From the NCBI GenBank assembly GCA_005239895.1, contig SBBB01000013.1, positions 1 to 43,363 on the forward strand: a DNA stretch of 43,363 nucleotides, written 5' to 3'. The stretch's first letter is position 1. Each line of letters starts with the position of its first letter. Shown here piece after piece: positions 35,056-39,193 of this stretch. Below the pieces are notes generated by a model. That model saw nothing but the letters and a program-made list of their open reading frames with translations, was not told where the DNA came from and ran no database searches. This stretch comes from a bacterium. GTDB taxonomy: Bacteria > Patescibacteriota > Patescibacteriia > SBBB01. Made by a program: the position numbers and the translations under genes.

Positions 35056-35322
35056 TTATTTTAATATGTTAAAGTATTCTTTTAACATTGTTATTAGTGT
35101 TGTTCTGCCACGATTAGTCTTAAGATATAATTCTCTACGTTTGGCATCTCTTTTGTTTTTATAAGCTTCGTAATGAATCAGTTCTAATGGCAAATATTCT
35201 TTTGTAGATTTTGAGTAGCCATTATTGTGTGCTGTAATTCTTTGTTTTAAATTTTCAGAATAGCCAATATAAATAAAATTTCTATTCTTGTTGTGTAAAA
35301 TATACACATAGTAGAATTTCAT
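35056..35322 (-). CDS. Small GIY-YIG endonuclease, copy A
   Basis: The open frame extends upstream to 35373, but MKFYYVYILHNKN at 35322 is the family start; the extension is repeat sequence. The 88-residue product is a single GIY-YIG domain of the UPF0213/YhbQ kind: YVYILHNKNRNFIYIGYSEN (the two motif strands), LKQRITAHNNG with the active-site Arg, and IHYEAYKNKRDAKRRELYLK with the catalytic Glu region. About three quarters of its residues match copy B at 38711. It stands downstream of initiator tRNA-Met, separated by an exact 88-bp tandem repeat. A free-standing mobile nuclease is suspected. Confidence 0.88.
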   Translation of the reverse strand: MKFYYVYILHNKNRNFIYIGYSENLKQRITAHNNGYSKSTKEYLPLELIHYEAYKNKRDAKRRELYLKTNRGRTTLITMLKEYFNILK

Positions 35323-35327
35323 ATTTG

Positions 35328-35503
35328 TATCTGGGGAGATACTAGACAGCATCTCCCTCAGGTTTCTATACATTACTGTCTCCTTGCGGAGCCAGGTATA
35401 GTATTGTACCTGGTTTATCTGGGGAGATACTAGACAGCATCTCCCTCAGGTTTCTATACATTACTGTCTCCTTGCGGAGCCAGGTATAGTATTGTACCTG
35501 GTT
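35328..35503 (-). repeat. Exact 88-bp tandem duplication
   Basis: Bases 35328-35415 and 35416-35503 are identical. Each unit has two hairpins, GGGAGAT/ATCTCCC and CCAGGTA/TACCTGG. The right copy includes the final acceptor base, discriminator and CCA of tRNA-fMet (35499-35503). A 21-base core also occurs inverted within leuS (31981-32001). Confidence 0.9.
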
Positions 35504-35575
35504 GCGGGGAACGGATTTGAACCGTTGACCTTCGGGTTATGAGCCCGACGAGCTACCAGGCTGCTCTACCCCGCG
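35499..35575 (-). tRNA. Initiator tRNA-Met (anticodon CAT)
   Basis: On the minus strand: acceptor CGCGGGG/CCCCGCA with the unpaired C1-A72 of initiators, anticodon stem CGGG/CCCG around CTCATAA with the three G-C pairs typical of tRNA-fMet, and T-arm AACGGTTCAAATCCGTT. A73 and CCA are encoded. Confidence 0.96.
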
Positions 35576-35580
35576 ATTTC

Positions 35581-36858
35581 CTAGCTATTTAAGATTTCTA
35601 AAAATTGATTTTCATGAATTGATTTTTCAAATGGTCCAATTAAGGCTAGGTTTAATTTAGATTTTTGAAAAACATCGTGAGCCACTCTCATTATATCATC
35701 AATTGTGACATTGTCAATTATTTGACAGTAGGCATCGGGCAAAATAATTTCACTTTTTAGAATTTCTTGCAGAGCTAAATAAGAAGCTATTTGTTCAGAA
35801 GTTTCTAAACTTAGTAATAATTTACCTTTAACATATTCTTTAGCTTTATAAAGTTCGTTTTTATGAATTCCATTATTAAGAATATTGTTGTGTTCTTGTA
35901 CAATCGCCTCAATAGCGTCGTATATTTTTTCGTTTTTAATACCAGCATTGGTTGCTAAAAATCCTGTATCCGTATGATGTTCGTTTTCAGTATGTATATA
36001 ATAAGTTAACCCGCGTTTTTCTCTAATTTCTTCAAATAAACGAGAACTCATACCACCGCCTAAAATAATGCTTAATAATTTTAAAGCATATTTATCTTTG
36101 TGCCAAATATCATAAGCTCTAAATCCTAACATAATATGAGTTTGATCGGTTTTTTTGTTGTGTATTAATATTTGAGGGCTATTTTGTTTTTCTGTTACTG
36201 AAAGTTTGTTTATATATTCACCCGAACGAATATCCGCAAAGTACACTTTGATTTGATTAAGTAGTTCGTCTGTATTTTGAATTTTTCCGCTTACAAATAC
36301 AACAGTATTAGAATCCACATAACGCTCATTCAAGTATTTTATAAAATTTTCGCGTTTAAAAGTTTGAATAATTTCTTTAGTTCCAGCTATATCCCAACCT
36401 GCGGGTTGATCTCCATAAAGCAAAGATTCCCATAAATCACCTATATAACGCATAGGTGTGTCGTAAAACATATTTATTTCTTCAGCAATAACACCTTTTT
36501 CTTTTTCTATTTCTTGGACATCAATTAAAGAGTGTAAAAAAATATCTGATACTACATCTAAAGCCAAATCTAAATGTTTAGCTGCTACTTTAGCGTAATA
36601 ACCTGTATATTCTTTGCCAGTAAAAGCATTATATTCTCCTCCTACACGATCTAGGGTTTCAGTAATAATAGTGCTACTCGGTCTTTTTATTGTGCCTTTA
36701 AAAAACATATGTTCTAAGAAATGAGACATGCCATTAATATCTTTCGTTTCATATTTAGACCCAGCTTTTACCATAATTAAGACGGTTACAGTCTCAGTAT
36801 GTTCTATAGGAGCTAAAATTACCGACAATTTATTATTTACAATATGTTTTTGATACAT
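35581..36858 (-). CDS. M16-family zinc peptidase
   Basis: This 425-residue protein has the inverted zinc motif H-x-x-E-H as SHFLEHMFFKGT (H46, E49, H50), with the third ligand Glu in KEKGVIAEEINMF (about 126). It has the one-chain length of processing-peptidase-like M16B enzymes, with a second, non-catalytic half (FRAYDIWHKDKYALKLLSIILG, REKRGLTYYI). There is no signal peptide, so it is cytoplasmic and probably degrades peptides. alaS lies 11 bases upstream, so both are likely co-transcribed; tRNA-fMet follows directly downstream. Confidence 0.92.
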   Translation of the reverse strand: MYQKHIVNNKLSVILAPIEHTETVTVLIMVKAGSKYETKDINGMSHFLEHMFFKGTIKRPSSTIITETLDRVGGEYNAFTGKEYTGYYAKVAAKHLDLALDVVSDIFLHSLIDVQEIEKEKGVIAEEINMFYDTPMRYIGDLWESLLYGDQPAGWDIAGTKEIIQTFKRENFIKYLNERYVDSNTVVFVSGKIQNTDELLNQIKVYFADIRSGEYINKLSVTEKQNSPQILIHNKKTDQTHIMLGFRAYDIWHKDKYALKLLSIILGGGMSSRLFEEIREKRGLTYYIHTENEHHTDTGFLATNAGIKNEKIYDAIEAIVQEHNNILNNGIHKNELYKAKEYVKGKLLLSLETSEQIASYLALQEILKSEIILPDAYCQIIDNVTIDDIMRVAHDVFQKSKLNLALIGPFEKSIHENQFLEILNS

Positions 36859-36869
36859 AAAAATAGAAT

Positions 36870-38714: not shown

Positions 38715-39004
38715 AGGTGATGGTTATTAAATGTTAGTTTGTTTTTGTCGTTAAAGTACTCTTTTAGCATAGTTTTTAAAGTTGTTTTACCTTTTGTTGT
38801 TTTGAAATATTGCTCCCTGCGTTTAGCGTCAATTTTGTTTTTATAAGCCTCATAATGAATTAATTCTAATGGCAAATATCCTTTTGTAGATTTGGAGTAG
38901 CCTTTGTTGTGTTCAATTATTCGTTGTTTTAAATTTGTAGAATAGCCAACATAAATAAAACTCCTATTTTTATTGTATAAAACATATACATAATAGAATT
39001 TCAT
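38711..39004 (-). CDS. Small GIY-YIG endonuclease, copy B
   Basis: The family start MKFYYVYVLYNKN is at 39004; the open frame to 39037 reads into repeat sequence. The 97-residue product is close to copy A at 35056: YVYVLYNKNRSFIYVGYSTN, LKQRIIEHNKG, YEAYKNKIDAKRREQYFKTT, and LKTMLKEYFN. The last twelve residues (DKNKLTFNNHHL) are additional and run through the alaS start; the stop and the alaS ATG overlap as ATGA. Upstream lie two tandem 26-bp units, a nested hairpin and tRNA-Gln, the same order as in copy A. Confidence 0.88.
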   Translation of the reverse strand: MKFYYVYVLYNKNRSFIYVGYSTNLKQRIIEHNKGYSKSTKGYLPLELIHYEAYKNKIDAKRREQYFKTTKGKTTLKTMLKEYFNDKNKLTFNNHHL

Positions 39005-39016
39005 AGTTTTTGTGTT

Positions 39017-39067
39017 GAGACGCACCATTCGGTGCATCTCTGGAGACGCACCATTCGGTGCATCTCT
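39017..39067 (-). repeat. Tandem 26-bp hairpin units
   Basis: GAGACGCACCATTCGGTGC (39017-39035), continued by ATCTCTG, is repeated at 39043-39067. Each unit is itself a hairpin (GCACC/GGTGC flanked by GAGA/TCTC). Confidence 0.85.
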
Positions 39068-39073
39068 AGCTTT

Positions 39074-39116
39074 ACCAGTCGGTTTCTGCTTCTGGCGAAG
39101 CAGTGCACCGACTGGT
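39074..39116 (-). repeat. Nested hairpin 3' of tRNA-Gln
   Basis: ACCAGTCGGT (39074-39083) pairs with ACCGACTGGT (39107-39116). Within it CTGCTTC (39086-39092) pairs with GAAGCAG (39097-39103). It begins 7 bases past the tRNA-Gln end and might also act as its terminator. Confidence 0.75.
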
Positions 39117-39122
39117 GCGCTG

Positions 39123-39193
39123 CTCCCGGACCTGGACTCGAACCAAGATTCACGGCTTCAAAGGCCGCTGTCCTACCTTTAGACGATCCGGGA
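39123..39193 (-). tRNA. tRNA-Gln (anticodon TTG)
   Basis: On the minus strand: acceptor TCCCGGA/TCCGGGA with U1-A72 and G73, D-arm TCGTCTAAAGGTAGGACA, anticodon stem GCGGC/GCCGT around CTTTGAA (TTG), T-arm CTTGGTTCGAGTCCAGG. CCA is not encoded (CAG follows). Confidence 0.95.

Follow-up and report, generated by a model that had tools for sequence, protein, structure and literature searches.

Candidate minimal selfish elements made of hairpins and a small GIY-YIG gene at tRNA 3' ends

Described GIY-YIG genes and introns in structured RNA genes

SegB of the T-even phages is a free-standing GIY-YIG homing endonuclease found beside tRNA genes of many isotypes, and it cuts within tRNA genes, which leads to tandem duplication of the unit of tRNA and segB (PMC13096335, PMC2988022); its cleavage motif is RAWTSGAAC, or GTTCSAWTY on the other strand (PMC13096335). 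Insertions in the rRNA genes of CPR bacteria also encode GIY-YIG proteins, belong to neither group I nor group II introns, and mostly occupy the top or base of stem-loops; the account of them deals with rRNA only, does not mention tRNA, and judges the GIY-YIG to lie outside spread by homing (PMC11270868). Finally, group I introns, some of them with homing endonuclease genes, reside in the anticodon loops of tRNAs with the function of the host gene kept (PMC3984707).

The DNA considered here, which we call the window, is a whole stretch of 43,363 nucleotides (contig C26 of a genome of 831,563 bases, 31 contigs and 44 tRNAs), and it carries two units with the same order of tRNA, hairpins and intact GIY-YIG gene on one strand (minus). 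These units are probably minimal selfish elements, each composed of a DNA-hairpin module and a single-domain GIY-YIG gene, similar to UPF0213, at the 3' CCA of a tRNA. Comparison of related loci establishes, at the level of sequence, that such elements are mobile and choose their sites; that the protein is an active nuclease, that it drives the movement and that the hairpins have a role is what we infer. As genomic parasites they seem to be of a kind that has not been described. The original prediction had not recognised them as a known system. In the literature searched (most subscription papers and all preprints being beyond reach), neither GIY-YIG elements within chromosomal tRNA genes nor the hairpin-bearing, tRNA-sparing form were described.

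The two units of the window

The host of unit 1 is an intact tRNA-Met(CAT) of initiator type at 35499-35575 on the minus strand, as are all features of both units (ARAGORN; Rfam RF00005, 64.6 bits). It is adjoined by the first of two identical 88-bp repeats (35416-35503), which comprises three hairpins; the second copy (35328-35415) begins with ACCA too. The first hairpin, CCAGGTACAATACTATACCTGG (35480-35501), follows a rule that holds equally in relatives, its 5' CCA being the tRNA 3' end, so that bases 35499-35501 belong to the tRNA and to the 5' arm of the stem alike. A distal hairpin, GGGAGATGCTGTCTAGTATCTCCC, lies at 35334-35357 with its other copy at 35422-35445, and the unit ends with a GIY-YIG gene of 88 aa at 35056-35322 (PF01541, E 3.3e-16) in which the columns of the catalytic motif are retained.

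Unit 2 is built on an intact tRNA-Gln(TTG) at 39122-39193 (ARAGORN; Rfam). The base of its first hairpin, GCAGCGCACCAGTCGGTGCACTGC (39100-39123), is again the tRNA 3' end, with GC at 39122-39123 shared between tRNA and 5' arm. This tRNA ends in GCAG rather than GCCA and the facing arm is CTGC, so that sequence and covariation both give GCAG/CTGC where relatives have GCCA/TGGC. Overlapping it is an outer hairpin, ACCAGTCGGT...ACCGACTGGT (39074-39116), which encloses an inner stem-loop by sequence and RNA fold. Two identical 25-bp copies of the hairpin repeat GAGATGCACCGAATGGTGCGTCTC then follow at 39043-39067 and 39017-39041, with a spacing of 26 bp, in addition to the nested hairpin. The GIY-YIG gene (97 aa, 38711-39004; PF01541, E 1.2e-15) overlaps the start of alaS (38714) by 4 bp.

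The open reading frames, PF01541 matches, ARAGORN calls and 78% identity between the two proteins thus bear out the prediction of two related minus-strand GIY-YIG genes downstream of initiator Met and Gln tRNAs. The prediction had also placed repeated hairpins in the gaps; the 88-bp and 26-bp-spaced repeats are indeed there, but the first hairpin is not confined to the gap and extends into the tRNA 3' end.

Two palindromes 5' of the tRNA-Gln look like remnants of earlier insertions. The nearer, CCATGAACCCTAAGTGGTTCATGG (39204-39227), has the form of the CCA-end hairpins of relatives (L213, L227) and is possibly the remnant of another insertion; the farther, ATCCGCCCTGTCATTCGACAGGGCGGAT (39276-39303), contains the core GTCGAATGAC of the loop-inserting hairpins of a sister clade, 0.03 such occurrences being expected in the window. 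Each unit has a single open reading frame, the GIY-YIG, and the tyrosine integrase of tRNA-integrating islands is absent. Rfam finds no group I or group II intron fold in the window. Elsewhere, 40 unlinked loci include a single group I intron (L231:1951-2225), close to a gene related to the window nuclease.

Both proteins carry the homing-type nuclease domain PF01541 in intact reading frames, and each is a single-domain GIY-YIG of about 90 aa. Their closest solved relatives by sequence are the UPF0213 proteins (PDB 1ZG2, 1YWL; E 4e-16), with SLX1 also among the best; these UPF0213 entries are hypothetical proteins for which mobility is not recorded. Synonymous divergence between the window copies is far above non-synonymous (Nei-Gojobori dN/dS of about 0.08), and this indicates purifying selection on the protein since the copies split. 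Internal stops occur in a few copies of the family. In 17 of the 100 copies of the class sample (L065, L080 and L063 among them) the nuclease stop codon lies within the downstream tRNA, so that the C-terminus of the protein is encoded by the 5' part of the tRNA.

Insertion sites across the nuclease family

Nine GIY-YIG copies were found in the window genome, five of them near a same-strand tRNA, for which our own arithmetic (44 tRNAs in 832 kb) gives a chance expectation of about 1% per copy, and one inside the 23S rRNA gene. We pooled 209 distinct copies from a sample of the class (several genomes near-exhaustively), a sample of the phylum and a scan of collections with organism names, all weighted towards close relatives of the queries. 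The collection scan used a narrower protein alignment (A3), alignment A1 being too divergent, and the resulting loci L130-L209 are therefore biased towards the loop-inserting clade. When linkage is defined by a tRNA lying from -60 to 150 bp downstream or at most 260 bp upstream of the nuclease gene, 147 of the 209 copies have an adjacent tRNA on the same strand and one has it on the opposite strand. The gene end falls between -51 and +46 bp from a tRNA start in 45 of the 100 copies of the class sample, and almost none lie farther away. Around 30% of copies, mostly deep-branching, have no tRNA nearby; among copies that are otherwise unlinked, four lie close to tmRNA and two within 23S rRNA (L002, L126). 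In the window genome the GIY-YIG gene within the 23S rRNA gene (L002:1501-1758, or G000:C25:3714-3971) is framed by an inverted repeat, CCAGCTCCACTTTTGGG and CCCAAAAGTGGAGCTGG.

The family is present in 49 of the 57 sampled genomes of the class, with 0 to at least 12 copies per genome, and also occurs in Cloacimonadota, Kiritimatiellota, Lentisphaerota, Planctomycetota and Omnitrophota; the Cloacimonadota copies are 77-79% identical to one CPR copy. No family relative was detected among 50,697 phage records, and a search for relatives on plasmids gave no match. On comparison, these relatives hold exact sites in tRNA, tmRNA and rRNA genes, and the type of site (CCA end, T-, anticodon- or D-loop) follows the lineage of the nuclease. 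In a tree built from 203 nuclease rows, coarse for its few columns, site class is clustered (26 changes against 42.6 when shuffled) and tRNA isotypes are scattered and far less clustered (73 changes against 91.0).

In the window's own clade the insertion point is directly 3' of the CCA of a tRNA or tmRNA (the latter at L044, L218 and L229), and together with the same-strand linkage this upholds the expectation that homologues are placed non-randomly. Closest to the window proteins are copies that stand behind tRNA-Gln (L210), tRNA-Arg (L211) and tRNA-Glu (L212, L219), and in these the first hairpin starts in the tRNA 3' CCA and has TGG in the opposing arm. Seven 24-mers, both window units included, share a ten-pair stem in which 90% of pairs are kept, and six of the ten pairs have changed on both sides, which none of 500 shuffles equals. 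Copies of family f114 behind Thr, Glu, Gln, Arg, Tyr, Leu and Gly tRNAs have a second hairpin in common, again with covariation. In the structure alignment (A5), the L213 row is noise owing to wrong coordinates. At L210 (1190-1800), GIY-YIG genes of two different clades flank the tRNA-Gln and the upstream reading frame ends within the tRNA.

Sister clades insert into the T-, anticodon- or D-loop of a redundant tRNA copy, and an intact copy stands across the nuclease gene. The typical order is truncated tRNA, hairpins, the next few bases of that tRNA, nuclease gene and complete tRNA of the same kind, and it is reversed at other loci; L081, for example, reads GGTCTCG, hairpins, AAAACCG against an intact GGTCTCGAAAACCG. 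Thus the prediction of a mobile element of nuclease and hairpins at tRNA 3' ends is supported, although the 3' end is one target among several. As far as the compared loci go, one complete tRNA is spared, because insertion at the CCA end loses nothing and insertion in a loop leaves a second full copy across the nuclease gene. In the window genome, a tRNA-Ser (L006:1321-1860, contig C6) is accompanied by a truncated 72-nt copy and three hairpins, with GIY-YIG genes on either side; a tRNA-Leu (L009:1400-2110, contig C2) shows a 5' copy that is truncated and bears two hairpins, a further hairpin at the CCA end, and a GIY-YIG gene that is broken, and is a case of several insertion types at a single tRNA.

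The position of the breaks is not uniform. Of 87 truncated tRNA copies, 70 have their break within the positions assigned to the D, anticodon or T loop, against 35% expected (p 6e-18, an optimistic value since the copies are related and the loops were set by position windows, not full structural alignment). A stem of at least 7 bp follows directly in 53 of the 70 type-A breaks, compared with 6.7% of random sites, and 29 of the 70 fall between CG and A. The insert of the largest clade consists of two hairpins with cores TCATNCGA and then TCGNATGA, which are mutual reverse complements; this order is found in 42 loci and its reverse in two, and the outer stems vary yet pair. It could be argued that small genes of any sort insert preferentially at tRNA 3' ends, that intergenic palindromes are common in these genomes, and that their meeting is coincidence; a stem of at least 8 bp at the CCA is indeed carried by 17.6% of the other tRNAs in the same loci. 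However, CCA-stems are found at 15 of 28 linked tRNAs, a single nuclease family occurs at all isotypes and at tmRNA, and neither breaks at set loop positions nor an ordered hairpin pair is expected by accident, making this extremely improbable.

The main rival to our reading is hairpin-directed transposition, in which a structure-specific GIY-YIG would act on single-stranded or cruciform hairpins and move the module from loop to loop, much as RAYTs, which are Y1 transposases, do with REPINs, which are dispersed in intergenic DNA and are not known from tRNA loops. The target sites are themselves loops of hairpins, the hairpins of the insert have NCGA in their loops as T-loops do, insertions reach 23S rRNA and tmRNA regions as well, UPF0213 and SLX1 are the best solved relatives, the double hairpin is an inverted pair like that of REPINs, and hairpin units at L075 and L155 have been amplified without the gene. 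On the other hand, the core GTCGAATGAC is not enriched as solo copies in the window genome (five, against four of a reversed control), an adjoining intact second tRNA arises more simply from recombination between tRNAs, and the CCA-end insertion lies outside any loop. We therefore regard this route as unlikely, though a serious contender, and the same applies to its corollary that tRNA genes are targeted because they fold into hairpins.

Congeneric genomes include both empty and occupied forms of one tRNA locus; these comparisons concern relatives and not the window units themselves, because the collections contain nothing close to the window genome. For tRNA-Gln, the empty form is that of G012, with the tRNA intact, and its congener G053 is occupied in the T-loop: the two are 87% identical over 306 bp running into the tRNA and ending at GGGGGTTC, after which G053 continues with the hairpins, the gene for the nuclease and then a full tRNA that matches that of G012 at 76 of 76 positions. 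At tRNA-Glu the roles are exchanged: an element occupies the anticodon loop in G012, and the tRNA of G053 is intact, a 3' remnant of a tRNA lying farther down. The distance from tRNA-Trp to rpmG is 20 bp in G013, about 49 bp in G005 and 363 bp in the element-bearing G006. For CCA ends, tRNA-Glu is occupied in G325 and lacks an element in G372 and G462 of the same genus, where homology ends at the tRNA 3' end; tRNA-Gly is occupied in G419, with CCA bordering both sides, and G189 retains only a short hairpin remnant, this pair being the one CCA-end case in which the right-hand end is fixed. Most genomes of one family have an empty tRNA-Tyr 3' end, and a few have different elements directly behind the CCA. 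No such tRNA-nuclease unit occurs in the alaS neighbourhoods of 29 relatives, and alaS synteny in class relatives gives no same-locus match to the window. With empty and occupied alleles within genera, and within a family for tRNA-Tyr, the pairing is not an old synteny, the pattern that the original prediction had set against itself. Comparison of L263 (1579-1860) with L123 shows that either of two tRNA-Glu genes, which differ in the acceptor stem, can be the intact one in congeners; this is a hint that elements may carry in a foreign tRNA that displaces the native one.

These distributions also bear on whether the gene might instead serve the host in maturing or degrading tRNA, co-transcribed with the tRNA and with the hairpins as processing or termination signals. 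Strict same-strand order, strong purifying selection and hairpins conserved with covariation are all compatible with such a role. Yet the same tRNA is found with or without the gene between congeners, copy number runs from 0 to at least 12 per genome, isotypes are scattered, tRNA copies are truncated, and some genes sit within 23S rRNA; this view is already largely refuted and we consider it very improbable. Moreover, hairpins as terminators can be rejected: the inspected ones have no T-run, their stems include tRNA bases, and in sister clades they lie inside tRNA loops.

A proposed route of movement and comparison with known systems

Returning to the reading as minimal selfish elements, we propose, by analogy with SegB, that the putative nuclease would cut an unoccupied tRNA gene at the insertion site, and that repair of the break by recombination through the tRNA sequences flanking the element would copy hairpins and gene together. 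The hairpins, with stems founded on tRNA bases, may block re-cutting of the occupied site, and they may keep tRNA and nuclease message apart when both are transcribed together; we are less sure of these two suggestions, which are the weakest steps of the model. More tentatively still, and with less than even likelihood, one might see here a wholly new class of mobile element that is defined by a tRNA-built hairpin stem and mobilised by a single-domain GIY-YIG recognising hairpin loops or tRNA ends, in which nuclease lineage, hairpin core and tRNA position co-evolve and which crosses bacterial phyla.

If active, these elements would, at about 400 bp, belong with the smallest DNA parasites that are autonomous, and would account for truncated tRNA copies and for the GIY-YIG insertions in CPR rRNA. 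They display a mode of life inside essential tRNA genes without splicing, and offer a compact set of site-specific nucleases whose targets can be read straight from the insertions.

How do they compare with what has been described? REPIN-RAYT systems likewise combine short inverted hairpin pairs with a single nuclease or transposase gene (PMC3116915), and the inverted pair occurs here in the sister clade only (42 ordered pairs); but the partner is a GIY-YIG, not a Y1 transposase, and the window genome shows no enrichment of the core as dispersed single hairpins. Group I introns preserve tRNA function by splicing, whereas here it is preserved by an intact second copy or by a position in the 3' flank. 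With free-standing homing endonucleases the elements share the nuclease domain and, at the loci of relatives, a site that is empty where the gene is lacking. SegB is a phage gene in tRNA clusters, while the carriers here are bacterial chromosomes and the protein has 85-100 aa; a hairpin module on tRNA bases and a truncated tRNA interrupted by hairpins, both present here, are not described for SegB, the second-strand motif of which we take to be the tRNA T-loop. Unlike rRNA intervening sequences, which lie in rRNA and are excised as a hairpin, the window units flank tRNAs. The CPR rRNA insertions come from the same lineages and encode the same domain, and L002 and L126 are of that kind. Phage SegB and the GIY-YIG insertions in CPR rRNA are thus the closest known systems.
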